From: Stygiobacter sp. RIFOXYC2_FULL_38_25
Lineage (GTDB): Bacteria > Bacteroidota > Ignavibacteria > Ignavibacteriales > Melioribacteraceae
Direction: 5' to 3'
NCBI GenBank assembly: GCA_001803165.1
Contig: MHAZ01000006.1
Coordinates: 435,428 to 499,427 of the forward strand
Length of the DNA stretch: 64,000 bases
The notes beneath the pieces are model-generated. The model did no database searches. It was given only the letters and a program-made list of their open reading frames with translations, and had not been told where the DNA came from. The position numbers and the translations under genes were made by a program. Below, piece after piece: positions 51,949-57,907 of the stretch. How positions within the stretch are numbered: the first letter of the stretch is position 1; each line of letters begins with the position of its first letter.

Positions 51949-52572
51949 TTACCAAGTATTCGGTTTAGTAAAGTTTGTGTTTGGTATTTGATTAGGCAAC
52001 TGAGATATTTTCAAGATGCCTGTTCTAATTCGTTTAATAAAATCCGCATGCTTCATAAGTTCTTTGGAAGGATGACCTTCGCCAGGCATAATTAATCCAA
52101 CTTTCTTTGTTGGGTGATAAAGTTTTACAATCCTCATAGATTCAGCTAAATCACTATCATTTGAAACAACAACAGCGCAATCATAATTGTTTAGCCATGC
52201 ATCGTTAACAACGTGAACAGCCATATTAACATCCGAACCTTTTTCCTCTGTCTTAATGATTTTTACCTTACTTGCAGTCGGGGTTGGTTCCGCTAAAGGT
52301 GCAAAAACTTCATGAGACAAAAAGTGCCCTAAATAAATATTCAACTCCGGAATGAATGATTTAAGTGCGCGTAAATAAGTTTGTTGATTCAACGGTTTCT
52401 TAGGGTTGCCCTTACCGGAAACAAGAGCAGTAAAGTATTTAATCTCTATAATCACATGTTCTTTTGAAAGTAGTTTGCCAAAGAGAGACTTGAAATCCAA
52501 CCATTTATATGGAGTGTTCTTAACGGCTCTATAATAAAAGTTAAAGCCGTCTATATAAATGATTGTCCGCAT
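51949..52572 (-). CDS. NYN-domain (PIN-like) putative RNA nuclease
   Basis: A 207-aa protein with a NYN/PIN-like nuclease domain. Acidic active-site candidates are Asp8 in IYIDGFNFYYR, the Asp in KGSDVNMAVHVV and the pair in VVVSNDSDLAESM, followed by VGLIMPGEG. No membrane segment or fused domain is present; the C-terminal ~30 residues (LPNQIPNTNFTKPNTW) look disordered. It is preceded by AGGTGGG and, 18 nt upstream of the ATG, by a terminator-like hairpin, so its expression may be controlled by attenuation. NYN proteins often cleave RNA in processing or defence; the target here is unknown. Confidence 0.87.
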   Translation of the reverse strand: MRTIIYIDGFNFYYRAVKNTPYKWLDFKSLFGKLLSKEHVIIEIKYFTALVSGKGNPKKPLNQQTYLRALKSFIPELNIYLGHFLSHEVFAPLAEPTPTASKVKIIKTEEKGSDVNMAVHVVNDAWLNNYDCAVVVSNDSDLAESMRIVKLYHPTKKVGLIMPGEGHPSKELMKHADFIKRIRTGILKISQLPNQIPNTNFTKPNTW

Positions 52573-52590
52573 TATCCCACCTAAATCTTT

Positions 52591-52655
52591 AAAAAAGCAA
52601 GAGCCACCGAAGTGACTCTGCGCCCATGGTCGAAACCGTAGGGGTGGTTAAAAAC
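52591..52655 (-). promoter_or_regulatory. Attenuator-like structured leader of the NYN gene
   Basis: On the minus strand AGAGTCAC (52612-52619), a TTCG tetraloop and GTGGCTCT (52600-52607) form a stem, followed by TTGCTTTTTT: an intrinsic terminator. It ends 18 nt before the NYN ATG, so no promoter fits between. A second stem with a TTCG loop precedes it (CC-TA-GGT with ACC-TGGG, about 52621-52645). An upstream CCACC could pair with GGTGG of the terminator stem and act as antiterminator. It could instead be the terminator of the 52717-54150 gene. Confidence 0.6.
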
Positions 52656-52716
52656 CTATCTAAAAATAGAGTTTCCTATATTCATTTTCAATGAAATTCT
52701 CTTGAAGCCAAATAAT

Positions 52717-54150
52717 CTATTTTATTTCCTTTATAAAAATGTTTCTGAAGCAAACTTTTGCGTCGCTATCGTGGTTTTGTAAACCAAAATAACCTTCTTT
52801 TGCAAAGTCTTTAATTTTTCCACGCGGCTCTGCTTTCCAGTTAACAATCTCTTTACCATTTAGAACTACTGTTATAATATCGCCAATGAAAGAAATTCTG
52901 TAGTGATTCCACTCGCCGGTTGGCTTAAATGCTTTTTCTCTCGCGGGCTCGGCATCGTAAACCGCGCCGGTTTGATGTTTCGGATCGGAAGCGTCATCAA
53001 TCTGAATTTCGAATGAGTGATAGATATAATCATCGCTCGTTACAAATTCCGGTACGCGCAAGAAAACACCGGAATTAGTTTTCGGCGCTAAACATTTGAA
53101 CTCAAGATCGAGAACGAAATTGCCATACTTTTTCTGACTGAACCACGACAAACCCATTCCTCCGCTCGAAGTTAAGATTCCGGTTTTGGGATCTAATTCA
53201 AAGTAACCGGGACCATAATGATTCCAGCCATGTTTTTCATATCTGCCCCAATTGTAGCTTAACAATTCTTGGAACCCTTTGTAGTAAGTAATTCCGGCTA
53301 TGTATTCCAATCCTTTTTTGATTGATGGAGATGGATTATCAACTTCTTTTTGGTCTTCATGTTCAATAACCAAGTAGCCACGAAAATTTTGCAATGTAAG
53401 TTCTGCAAGTATATCGTGAATGTTAGCTTTGCCGCTTCCGAAAGGAACATCGTAAGCATCTTTGTTGCCGAATTCATTTAGGTCTTTCAAGTGAAGTTCA
53501 ATCATTCTGCCGGAAAGCATTTTAAGCGCGTCAATTGGATTTACGGAAGTTCTCAGCCAATGTCCGGTATCGCCGCAAGAGCCAATGCGCGCATCCAATC
53601 CTTTAATATGATCAACCACAACTTGCGGTCTTGCATACTTTGATGGTTCCGGATGATTATGAATTGCTACATTGATTCCATACTGTTTTACAAATTTCTC
53701 GAGCAGAGAGAAATCATCGGTAGCTGGTTCTGTAACTATTGTTTGAATTCCCATTGTCTTAGCGAACTCAAAAACTTTCTTCGTTGCGGCTTCTGTATTT
53801 TCAAAACCAACAACTCCAAAGTTCACAAGCTTGATTCCAGCTTCATCTAATTTCTTTTTAACAAGAGTAATGTTTGCATCGCTCATATCATAATTGAAAA
53901 TTGCATTTGGATCATCGCCGCCAAGTTTTTGTCCCGGGTAAGCTTCCAAATATTTAACGCCAAGTTCTTTTACTTTTTGAAGGGTTTCAACAAAAGTAAA
54001 TTTTCTAAACGTCCAGCATTGAACTGCAACTTTGAACTCACGGATATTAACATTCTTGTAATCAACTTCTTCTTTCATCTGCTGTGCATTAATATTACTT
54101 GCCATAACTAGAACCAGAATCACTGCCAGTATTTTTTTCAAGTTCAACAT
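52717..54150 (-). CDS. Exported sugar isomerase/epimerase (TIM barrel) fused to a DUF1080 domain
   Basis: This 477-aa protein has a Sec signal (residues 1-22, ending SNINAQ). Residues ~28-290 form an AP-endonuclease-2-type TIM barrel of sugar phosphate isomerases/epimerases with metal-site motifs EAYPGQK, VAIHNHPEPS, GSCGDTGHWLR, ELHLKDL and VIEHEDQ. Residues ~295-477 are a DUF1080 beta-sandwich (GYFELDPKTGILTSSGG, LDLEFKCLAPKTNSGVFLRV, WNHYRISFIGD). The fusion joins two activities of the 3-keto-glycoside route on one exported chain, in keeping with the Gfo/Idh gene that follows on the upstream side. The barrel may rearrange or hydrate a 3-keto sugar; which reaction is not known. Confidence 0.88.
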   Translation of the reverse strand: MLNLKKILAVILVLVMASNINAQQMKEEVDYKNVNIREFKVAVQCWTFRKFTFVETLQKVKELGVKYLEAYPGQKLGGDDPNAIFNYDMSDANITLVKKKLDEAGIKLVNFGVVGFENTEAATKKVFEFAKTMGIQTIVTEPATDDFSLLEKFVKQYGINVAIHNHPEPSKYARPQVVVDHIKGLDARIGSCGDTGHWLRTSVNPIDALKMLSGRMIELHLKDLNEFGNKDAYDVPFGSGKANIHDILAELTLQNFRGYLVIEHEDQKEVDNPSPSIKKGLEYIAGITYYKGFQELLSYNWGRYEKHGWNHYGPGYFELDPKTGILTSSGGMGLSWFSQKKYGNFVLDLEFKCLAPKTNSGVFLRVPEFVTSDDYIYHSFEIQIDDASDPKHQTGAVYDAEPAREKAFKPTGEWNHYRISFIGDIITVVLNGKEIVNWKAEPRGKIKDFAKEGYFGLQNHDSDAKVCFRNIFIKEIK

Positions 54151-55637: not shown

Positions 55638-56639
55638 TTATTTTTTACGTTCTGTTAATTTTTTAACCGCTTTATCAAAATCACTCGATGGATTTTCGAG
55701 TTCTTTCTGCTTCTGAATTTCTTGATACTTTACTAATTCCTTAAGCGCGATTTCCTCACCAATCTTTTTCTGAATGCGTCCGGCATCCATAAGAACGGTG
55801 CGTTCATTTATTGTAAGAAAATCATGAAGTTTATTTATCCAGTCTTGCATAGTCATTGATTTACGCTGCATTGCTTGCAACTCTGCAAACGACAAATATT
55901 GATCTACAATTAGGTTAAGCTGTTTTATTTCTTCTTCCGATAGATAATTCTTAGCGATAGTTACATCTGTCTTTTTAATTTTAGAACCCTTCCATGAAGT
56001 TAAACCCATGTAAGGTTTTTTAGAATCCGCTCTTTCTGCTATCAATTCCGATGCAGTATGACCATGAATTGCATAATGAAATTTATTTTGAACAGTAGCA
56101 AAGAATTCTTGTGTGGCTTTAGCCTCGGGATTGTAATCAACACTTGTTGCATAAATATCGGTAACCTTACGGTAGAAAATCTTTTCGGAAGTGCGAATAT
56201 CACGGACACGTTCCAATAGCTCATCAAAATAATCGTTGCGGGCTTGCTTAAGTCGTTCATCATCAAGAACAAAACCTTTGACGAGATATTCTTTAATCCG
56301 TTGAGTTGCCCAAATGCGGAATTGAGTTCCGCGATTGGATTTTACACGGTAGCCGACTGAGATAATAACATCAAGATTATAATGCTCTATAGAGCGGGAA
56401 ACATCCCTTTTCCCTTCAATTTGAACTGTCAAGTAATCCTTGACAGATGCCTCACGATTTAATTCGCCTTCTTCAAAAAGGTTGTTAATGTGAAGACTGA
56501 TATTCTGTTTTGTGGTTTGGAAAAGTGCAGCCATTTGAACTTGATTGAGCCAAACGGTTTCTTTTTCCAATCGGACATCAATCTTGGTTGTTCCGTCTTC
56601 TGCCCGATAAAAAATTATTTCGGAATTAGATTCCAACAT
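55638..56639 (-). CDS. rhuM: RhuM-family protein
   Basis: A 333-aa protein of the RhuM (virulence RhuM) family. The N-terminal half has ETVWLNQVQMAALFQTTKQNISLHINN (a winged-helix-like part), then EGKRDVSRSIEHYNLDVIISVGYRVKS and RGTQFRIWATQRIKEYLVKGF. The C-terminal half has FYRKVTDIYATSVDYNPEA, FATVQNKFHYAIHGHTASELI and LPKxY-like DKxY features in YLSEEEIKQLNLIVDQYL. The family recurs in genomic islands and next to restriction systems; its molecular role is unknown. I placed the start at the ATG at 56637-56639. It lacks its own ribosome binding site and overlaps a short leader ORF made from the start of a lost Gfo/Idh gene, so it is probably translated by coupling. Confidence 0.9.
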   Translation of the reverse strand: MLESNSEIIFYRAEDGTTKIDVRLEKETVWLNQVQMAALFQTTKQNISLHINNLFEEGELNREASVKDYLTVQIEGKRDVSRSIEHYNLDVIISVGYRVKSNRGTQFRIWATQRIKEYLVKGFVLDDERLKQARNDYFDELLERVRDIRTSEKIFYRKVTDIYATSVDYNPEAKATQEFFATVQNKFHYAIHGHTASELIAERADSKKPYMGLTSWKGSKIKKTDVTIAKNYLSEEEIKQLNLIVDQYLSFAELQAMQRKSMTMQDWINKLHDFLTINERTVLMDAGRIQKKIGEEIALKELVKYQEIQKQKELENPSSDFDKAVKKLTERKK

Positions 56640-56682
56640 TGAAACCGGTTCCAATCATTCCTACGCCAATTCTTTCTGCCAT
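56626..56682 (-). pseudogene. Remnant 5' end of a second Gfo/Idh gene, now a leader ORF for RhuM
   Basis: After a GGAGG ribosome binding site the frame reads MAERIGVGMIGTGFNVGI and stops at TAA (56626-56628), 18 codons long. The first 15 residues match the start of the 54344-55594 oxidoreductase except for Lys4/Arg and Ala12/Thr. The remaining gene is missing and RhuM begins inside the last codons (ATG at 56637-56639). The 56-nt match covers 56639-56694. Confidence 0.85.
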
Positions 56683-56830: not shown

Positions 56831-57907
56831 TCATTTTTTCTTTTGTGGTTTAACTTTTTCTTTACTGTGCTTTTTCATTATTTCTGATATACTGTGTTTT
56901 TCTTTCAACTGTAAAATATTATCCCCTATTGAATGGAGATATTCATTCGAATCTTCAAATAAAGTGTTCTGGTTTGTCGTTTCAGATTTTGAAGGCAGAG
57001 ATAGAAACTCTAGAAAATAATCTTTTTCCGATTTAGAAGTTGATAATCCATAATCGCGCGAATTCATTTTAACAAGGTTCTGCAAATCATTTTCAAATGT
57101 AATTTTCTTCCTCGGATTTATTTTCAAATCTTCAATTTGCTTCTTTAATTTGCTTATTAATTCATTTTTCTTTTGAGTTATACTTTTCCTTTCTGTAGAA
57201 AATTTTTCAAGTTGATTCGTCAGGAATATTACATAAGAGCCCATTTCGTCTGCACTTCCAGCTAAACGATTTAATATTTGAGAGAATTGTACGAGAATTG
57301 GATCAGATAAATTTCTAGGATATCGTACTGTATGGTCAATTTCACTCCATCCTTCTTCAAATATTGTCCTTACTTGTATCTCAGAAAAATTCTCTTTTAT
57401 TGTAGGTGAAGATTTTAGTAAGTAATGAACCGAGCGATAACCATATGGATGCTTTCTTACATCACAATCGGTTTTCTCATATTTTTCATTTTTATCTCCT
57501 TCTCTAACGTAAGCAATGGGTCTTTCACGTAAAGACCAAGTGGATTTAATAAAATGATGAATATCTAACCAATCTTCCTTAAATAGATGTAATACTCTAA
57601 TACCAATTAAATCAGTTATTTCACTTTTATAATTATCTAAAGTAATACGTCTCCTTTTATCACCTATCTTTTTTCTAATTATTTTGGCAATGAGGCTGTC
57701 TGGACTTTTTAAGCGATACCGAACGGAATGTATTTTCTTTACCTTGTGAAGCCTTTCAATAATATAATTAGCTGTAGGTTCAAGGTCCGGGAGTATACTC
57801 ATATAGTTTTCACGAATTTTCTGAAGCTCATCCCATTTGAGTTTGGTGGCTTTAAAATCTTTCATTGTAATATTATGTTTACTAAGAAAAGAATCTAAGT
57901 CGCTCAT
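56831..57907 (-). CDS. RelA/SpoT-domain protein (alarmone synthetase-like)
   Basis: A 358-aa protein with one (p)ppGpp-synthetase-type domain (about residues 40-235) and no hydrolase, TGS or ACT domain. Motifs are ITDLIGIRVLHLF with the metal-binding Asp, HPYGYRSVHYLLKSS, and EIQVRTIFEEGWSEIDH with Gln and Glu of the catalytic patch. The C-terminal ~120 residues are charged and partly coiled coil (RKSITQKKNELISKLKKQ), ending in a Lys-rich tail. Such single-domain proteins are small alarmone synthetases or toxic/defence variants (toxSAS, CapRel-like). It lies about 150 nt upstream of the RhuM leader on the same strand, in an apparent insertion. Catalytic product cannot be read from sequence. 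Confidence 0.85.
   Translation of the reverse strand: MSDLDSFLSKHNITMKDFKATKLKWDELQKIRENYMSILPDLEPTANYIIERLHKVKKIHSVRYRLKSPDSLIAKIIRKKIGDKRRRITLDNYKSEITDLIGIRVLHLFKEDWLDIHHFIKSTWSLRERPIAYVREGDKNEKYEKTDCDVRKHPYGYRSVHYLLKSSPTIKENFSEIQVRTIFEEGWSEIDHTVRYPRNLSDPILVQFSQILNRLAGSADEMGSYVIFLTNQLEKFSTERKSITQKKNELISKLKKQIEDLKINPRKKITFENDLQNLVKMNSRDYGLSTSKSEKDYFLEFLSLPSKSETTNQNTLFEDSNEYLHSIGDNILQLKEKHSISEIMKKHSKEKVKPQKKK

Follow-up and report, generated by a model that had tools for sequence, protein, structure and literature searches.

A conserved two-hairpin RNA linked to NYN nuclease genes, candidate partners in a type III-like toxin-antitoxin module

Type III toxin-antitoxin loci are recognized by their layout, in which a promoter is followed by repeats, a terminator, and the toxin gene (PMC8860590). 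What the ToxIN, CptIN, and TenpIN families have in common with the locus reported here is the order promoter, antitoxin RNA (a candidate one in our case), terminator, and endoribonuclease gene, together with their occurrence on both plasmids and chromosomes (PMC8860590). A similar layout has been described for AbiF/RCd22 of Clostridioides difficile, in which the toxin gene lacks a predicted promoter, follows a structured RNA equipped with both a promoter and a terminator, and is expressed from a read-through transcript, and in which the RNA neutralizes the protein (PMC12373285). AvcID is classed as type III although its toxin is a deaminase, which shows that enzymes other than ToxN can come under the control of a type III antitoxin RNA; the RNA inhibits the deaminase and disappears upon phage infection (PMC10511110). 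A search for HEC-09 found one paper, where it is among the names listed as correlated with phage susceptibility; the passage that lists it mentions no RNA partner (PMC12447246).

The locus described here lies in the window, the whole 64,000-nucleotide stretch of Stygiobacter DNA that was analyzed, and combines a small structured RNA with a gene for an NYN-domain protein. It resembles ToxIN in having a promoter-like sequence, a weak 9/12 match, directly before the RNA and a terminator, formed by hairpin P2 and a U tract, between the RNA and the candidate toxin gene, and the short distance from RNA to gene in those NYN loci where the RNA lies upstream is also that of ToxIN and AbiF/RCd22 (PMC8860590, PMC12373285). 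Unlike ToxI, the RNA in the window consists of a single pair of hairpins, with no tandem repeats and no pseudoknot detected; tandem hairpin repeats are, however, shared with ToxIN by one plasmid-borne homologue. The candidate toxin has an NYN fold and is not a ToxN, and elsewhere the NYN-linked RNA also occurs in convergent or divergent orientation relative to the gene. Compared with AbiF, the protein is NYN and not of the Abi_2/AbiD/F family, and RF03085, the Rfam family of RCd22, reaches its gathering score in neither the window nor 27 other loci and does not appear among the weak matches of the leader stretch. AvcID uses a different enzyme, and no terminator is predicted between avcI and avcD (PMC10511110). 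The module therefore falls outside ToxIN, CptIN, and TenpIN, because the toxin fold differs and the window RNA lacks repeats, and outside AbiF, because RF03085 does not match. Judged by analogy, it is most likely an RNA-controlled toxin system of a kind undescribed for the NYN family that works like type III systems. A search of open-licence papers in PubMed Central, judged by titles, the opening of abstracts, and selected passages, returned no description of an NYN nuclease paired with an antitoxin RNA.

The two-hairpin leader is encoded on the minus strand, in the gap that separates a sugar-metabolism gene (52717-54150) from the NYN gene (Table 1). The initial annotation had placed two TTCG hairpins before this gene and a terminator hairpin with a U tract 18 nt before its start codon, and both features are indeed present: the RNA consists of a 5' tail, P1, P2, and the U tract, after which 18 nt lead to the ATG at 52572. 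The conserved unit, from about 52655 to 52590, is shorter than the stretch first annotated (52573-52716). The predicted folding energy of the window RNA (66 nt) is -20.3 kcal/mol, against -13.1 +/- 2.6 for shuffled sequences, none of which equaled it in 200 trials. Between the stop of the upstream gene (52717) and the ATG, the sole promoter-like site on this strand lies a few bases before the RNA. Scans of the window were not above chance for terminators (4 terminator-like sites versus 2.9 expected) or for promoters (12 promoter-like sites versus 10.4 expected); with these scans alone at chance level, the element is judged real because it is conserved. At gathering score, Rfam held no family for the RNA in the window or in the 27 other loci, the matches there being tRNAs, and weak matches of the leader stretch fell far below the cut-off (isrB, 18.3 bits versus 35). 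When the genome itself was searched for repeats of the element, it yielded one full copy and six short matches, the best with an E value of 0.029.

Table 1. Coordinates of the features of the NYN locus in the window
Feature	Position	Strand	Basis
Small structured RNA (candidate antitoxin), ~65 nt	52590..52655	-	Covariance model R1, fold
Hairpin P1, CCUA-C-GGU UUCG ACC-A-UGGG, loop TTCG	52623..52642	-	Fold, covariation
Hairpin P2, G+C-rich terminator stem, loop TTCG, bulge before closing GC	52597..52621	-	Scan, fold
U tract (T6), predicted RNA end	52591..52596	-	Sequence
Promoter-like site TTGAAA-17-TATTTT ahead of RNA	52663..52691	-	9/12 consensus, weak alone
NYN-domain nuclease gene, 207 aa (candidate toxin)	51949..52572	-	Pfam NYN, HEC-09, fold

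We read the flanks of 80 homologous NYN loci on genome contigs, the best 80 of 284 confirmed loci. Forty RNA copies, those of the window and of 39 of these 80 loci, were aligned with MAFFT (alignment A1), and covariance model R1 was trained on the same 40 sequences, so that the 39 match by construction, as does the window itself (52590-52653, 72.3 bits). With matches accepted up to an E value of 1, 78 of these best 80 of 284 loci have an R1 RNA next to their NYN gene, and the linkage therefore holds for the closer homologues. Among the 41 of these best 80 loci that had no part in training, 39 have a match, comprising 26 upstream copies and all 13 convergent ones, and 9 of the 78 matches score below 30 bits and rest on their position. 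The two misses among the best 80 are L076, in which the N-terminus is missing, and L112, in which a variant of the RNA is visible by eye. The leader reported in the initial annotation is thus conserved. Loci with the RNA bear 13 phylum labels in the protein tree, most of them attached to metagenome-assembled genomes, so that the labels may err.

The structure of the RNA is supported by covariation. The A1 consensus comprises 17 pairs, 16 of them with compensatory changes. With the structure named, 93.8% of cells are paired, compared with 75.5% in shuffled alignments, and two-sided changes affect 141 cells, compared with 40; none of 500 shuffles reaches any of the five structure measures, and slid versions of the structure attain at most 58%, although the structure was derived from the same alignment, which favors it. 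All seven pairs of P1 show two-sided changes in the 40 copies, as do eight of the nine pairs of the main helix of P2, in which 97.2% of cells are paired, and P2 with its U tract is kept as a terminator in the homologues. In 96 copies, whose alignment was fitted to the model, every one of the 15 column pairs that covary most strongly belongs to the structure, and no additional covarying helix or pseudoknot was seen, the model to which this alignment was fitted being a nested one. Variation in the family is for the most part compensatory change within the stems. Distances between RNAs correlate with distances between the corresponding proteins (Mantel rho 0.44; at most 0.14 in 500 permutations; L057, L067, and L101, each with more than one stop, left out), which shows shared history only. 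A functional link between the RNA and the NYN nuclease is very likely.

The only Pfam match of the window protein is NYN (E 1.3e-10). Over nearly its full length it also matches HEC-09, a candidate-defense profile of PADLOC (E 1.4e-39), the likeness to HEC-09 being one of protein profile only, and it matches PHROG 7929 (E 7.9e-59). A sequence search for a known structure gave none at an E value of 10. Its AlphaFold2 model, with a mean pLDDT of 95.4, superimposes on the NYN protein VPA0982 (2qip; Z 16.7, 156 residues, 2.8 A) and on the NYN domains of mouse and human MARF1 (5yaa_A, Z 16.3; 6fdl_B, Z 15.9), the next structural match being far lower (Z 7.8). These proteins share the fold of the window protein at 14 to 18% identity, with 51 to 61 of the 207 model residues unaligned. 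Six acidic residues (D8, E110, D114, D124, D139, and D141) are invariant in 59 sequences. The domain profile, the fold, and the conserved acidic residues of the NYN superfamily are thus all found in the window protein, and sequence and model together suggest that it is likely to be an active nuclease. In keeping with mobility, homologues occur in 16 of 97 genomes and in none of the five other genomes of the genus, and a tblastn search of plasmids found 449 records with NYN homologues, all below 60% identity.

The RNA is found in three arrangements relative to the gene. Among the best 80 of 284 loci, it lies upstream on the strand of the gene in 65 and downstream on the opposite strand in 13, none of the latter having been used to train R1; the 13 convergent loci are labeled Actinomycetota or Chloroflexota, bar one that is unlabeled. 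The layout of the window recurs in L065, from a cultured Polynucleobacter isolate. In a total of 114 NYN loci, 77 have the RNA upstream, 15 have it convergent, and 22 have no R1 match, these being L076, L112, and otherwise distant homologues from whole genomes, plasmids, and viral contigs. In this count L010, L012, and L013 are left out and replaced by L037, L040, and L054, which have the same or nearly the same DNA, and both members of the look-alike pairs L075/L127, L089/L128, and L130/L140 are counted. In the 15 convergent copies, 0 to 20 nt separate the 3' end of the RNA from the point where the gene match ends. The third arrangement is seen in five distant loci (L014 and L016 to L019; 32 to 37% identity), in which the RNA, made up of two hairpins and a T tract, is located upstream and runs divergently from the gene. 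An alignment of these five RNAs has 16 pairs, 12 of them with compensatory change, and the best unfiltered in-locus match of model R2 is the divergent RNA place in all five (E 0.02 to 0.07), matches that are weak on their own because R2 was built from R1 matches; the match in L016 is shorter than the element, and that in L019 is 0.3 bits ahead of the next. On a tree of 110 proteins, from which L057, L067, and L101 (more than one stop) were omitted, the arrangement labels require 10 changes, whereas 35 are needed on average once the labels are shuffled; the labels for divergent and other upstream RNAs were assigned by eye, and the bootstrap had not settled. Such a small number of changes implies that the arrangement is inherited by clade and has been altered a few times. 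Because the RNA occurs in convergent and divergent copies, it probably acts in trans. In one locus (L158, from G294), two RNA copies on the same strand (1399-1474 and 2241-2301) flank a single NYN gene match, one before it and the other about 120 nt after it.

A sigma-70-like match of at least 9/12 was found within 70 nt upstream of 65 of 90 RNAs, compared with 23% of shuffled sequences, and 52 of these 65 matches end 1 to 9 nt before the RNA. By arrangement, 60 of 76 upstream-type copies have such a match, as do 5 of 14 convergent copies, a proportion hardly above that in shuffles. In the 77 upstream loci the median distance from the RNA end to the gene match is 11 nt, and in one of them it is 40 nt or more. 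A gap this short leaves little room for a second promoter, and the gene in upstream-type loci is therefore most likely expressed by read-through of the terminator of the RNA. For copies of this type, the data accordingly support the earlier suggestion that no promoter fits after the RNA and that transcripts must pass through the terminator.

The fate of the two components was followed in 395 genomes of the phylum, with NYN loci called at an E value of 1e-25 and RNA places at 1e-4. Sixteen NYN loci were found, and the RNA is present at all 12 with at least 45% identity, the window's own included. Of four loci at 39 to 43% identity, three (L160, L162, and L163) have no RNA by R1 or R2, and the fourth (L164) has an RNA match at chance level only; some relatives therefore manage without the RNA. 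The three loci without RNA (in G171, G312, and G422:C49) all come from one genome family (f40), and their NYN proteins may have been put to another use. RNA places also number 16, of which 9 adjoin an NYN match and 7 have no intact gene. Eight NYN codons remain beside the RNA in G028 and about the last 30 residues in G057, broken NYN frames are found in G283 and G331, the second RNA copy of G246 is accompanied by NYN scraps with a stop, and G341 has no trace of the gene; in G058 an intact NYN gene is absent and the RNA itself is part-decayed. A 28.7-bit RNA match in G075 (L126), which has no NYN gene, looks like a plain terminator. Three further RNAs of 77 to 83 bits (L057, L067, and L101) lie beside gene matches with several in-frame stops, where assembly errors are possible. 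This pattern of decay is in keeping with an antitoxin that does no harm by itself and a toxin that cells do not tolerate without it. It is supportive but not decisive, because the gene, about tenfold the length of the RNA, presents a larger mutational target. In L119 (G028), at about 1571-2547, the broken NYN copy abuts two genes, which by eye resemble an AbiE-type pair.

We consider it probable that the locus is a type III-like toxin-antitoxin module in which the RNA neutralizes the NYN RNase. The scarcity of promoter matches before convergent copies and the six plasmid loci that neither model matches weigh slightly against this reading. A short structured RNA would be made from its own promoter and would end at P2 and the U tract, and occasional read-through of this terminator would yield the mRNA of the NYN-fold ribonuclease. 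By analogy with type III systems, the RNA probably binds the enzyme directly and would keep it inactive while the RNA is in excess, an excess that the terminator would maintain in upstream-type loci and separate transcription would maintain elsewhere. Were the supply of RNA to stop, for example through phage shutdown of host transcription or through loss of the carrying plasmid, the freed enzyme would cut cellular RNA to toxic effect, and the module could benefit its bearer through defense or through plasmid maintenance.

The initial annotation had instead described an attenuator-like leader, in which an upstream CCACC (52647-52643) competes for the GGTGG of the terminator (52608-52604). The more general cis reading, that the RNA only controls read-through and is perhaps sensed or cut by the nuclease, draws on the position of the RNA upstream with a terminator in 77 loci, nearly all of which leave no promoter room after it, but we consider it improbable: 15 loci are convergent and five distant loci divergent, and there the RNA cannot be a leader, and the RNA persists where the NYN gene is gone or broken. 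The proposed switch also failed to stand out, as CCACC and GGTGG are paired in 67.8% of cells, compared with 66.5% in shuffles, 117 of 500 of which score as high. A structured RNA with a terminator before the gene thus stands, and a cis attenuator operating by CCACC and GGTGG does not. Masking of the ribosome site by pairing of CCACC with a second GGTGG (52581-52577), within the likely ribosome-binding region of the NYN gene, was suggested by the fold of the whole leader and was likewise rejected: of 77 other upstream loci, one has a GGTGG near the gene start, a rarity that also counts against the cis reading. The motif was sought in the 15 nt that precede the protein match, whose beginning does not always coincide with the start codon. 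Autoregulation by read-through may arise as a side effect of the layout, by analogy with type III toxin-antitoxin loci. Base pairing of the RNA with the NYN mRNA, as in type I systems, would suit the convergent loci, in which the transcripts meet at their 3' ends, but such antisense control appears very improbable, given that the RNA forms no better duplex with its own gene match, over the first 90 nt, than with those of other loci (mean z 0.02 +/- 0.11, n = 92); for the 5' part of the gene it is rejected, complementarity there being at chance. Least credible of all is the reading that the element simply terminates the upstream sugar gene and has nothing to do with NYN. The element does lie about 100 nt after the stop of that gene, but it accompanies NYN in 78 of the best 80 of 284 loci, and conservation takes in P1 as well as the terminator.

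That the RNA is instead a cofactor or activator, such that the NYN protein is harmless alone and turns into an active ribonucleoprotein nuclease, serving in defense or RNA processing, only with the RNA, seems to us unlikely, even though the same linkage and the same trans arrangements would be expected and the 5' tail, conserved and rich in pyrimidines, could serve for recognition. No hypervariable single-stranded stretch fit to serve as a guide stands out in alignment A1, and the repeated units with a terminator found in some homologues resemble antitoxin arrays. The presence of the RNA at 12 of 12 closer NYN loci, set beside 7 of 16 RNA places without an intact gene, also counts against a cofactor, because a harmless protein should more often occur alone, but gene length confounds this argument, and three more distant NYN loci are without the RNA.

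When 12 of the 449 plasmid records were inspected for the RNA, 6 had a model match with an E value below 0.01, three by R1 (L116, L141, and L143) and three by R2 (L114, L115, and L144), and 6 had none. R1 also matches one prophage (L150) and 8 of 14 IMG/VR loci. L115, on a 4.6-kb Escherichia coli plasmid, encodes an NYN homologue of 38% identity and carries 2.6 copies of a 33-nt hairpin unit, followed by a terminator and then the NYN gene; this repeat stretch is present in 17 plasmid records. The RNA of L114, on a 3.46-kb E. coli plasmid, folds into two successive P1 and P2 units, the second of which is matched by R2 (E 9e-7). In Thiothrix (L144), the R2 match (E 0.0023) is located some 490 nt upstream, ahead of a small gene that runs in the same direction. 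We lean slightly towards a pan-bacterial superfamily of RNA-neutralized NYN ribonucleases, whose RNA is not in Rfam and is a 65-nt unit that is single in most of the loci inspected and doubled or in tandem on small E. coli plasmids, whose RNA gene is upstream, convergent, or divergent, and which would link the single RNA of AbiF with the repeat array of ToxIN. On Klebsiella and Marinobacter plasmids (L145, L147, and L148), other hairpin RNAs with a GCGATTAAGTT-like motif, recognized by eye, precede a terminator and an NYN gene, in two copies 53 nt apart in L145, and are possibly a sister RNA family. Four plasmid matches (H33, H40, H44, and H55) are distant NYN homologues annotated as 6-hydroxy-3-succinoylpyridine hydroxylase or 3-monooxygenase, a name that is probably misleading.

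If the toxin-antitoxin reading is correct, type III-like systems would gain a new toxin fold and a new family of RNA antitoxins, and would include a case of an antitoxin RNA that is free of the operon layout. The candidate defense protein HEC-09 would likewise gain its missing RNA half, which would matter for screens in which the HEC-09 protein is expressed alone.

Other genes near the locus may be mentioned. Two minus-strand genes 3 to 5 kb from the NYN gene (55638-56654 and 56831-57907) are a RhuM-family gene, which matches the PADLOC candidate PDC-S05 (E 3e-142), and a RelA/SpoT-domain gene, which has no PADLOC match. They sit inside a cluster of sugar genes and are perhaps part of a small defense islet. 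The gene at 52717-54150, also on the minus strand, combines a xylose-isomerase-like barrel with a 3-keto-disaccharide hydrolase domain, and genes for Gfo/Idh/MocA oxidoreductases lie near it.
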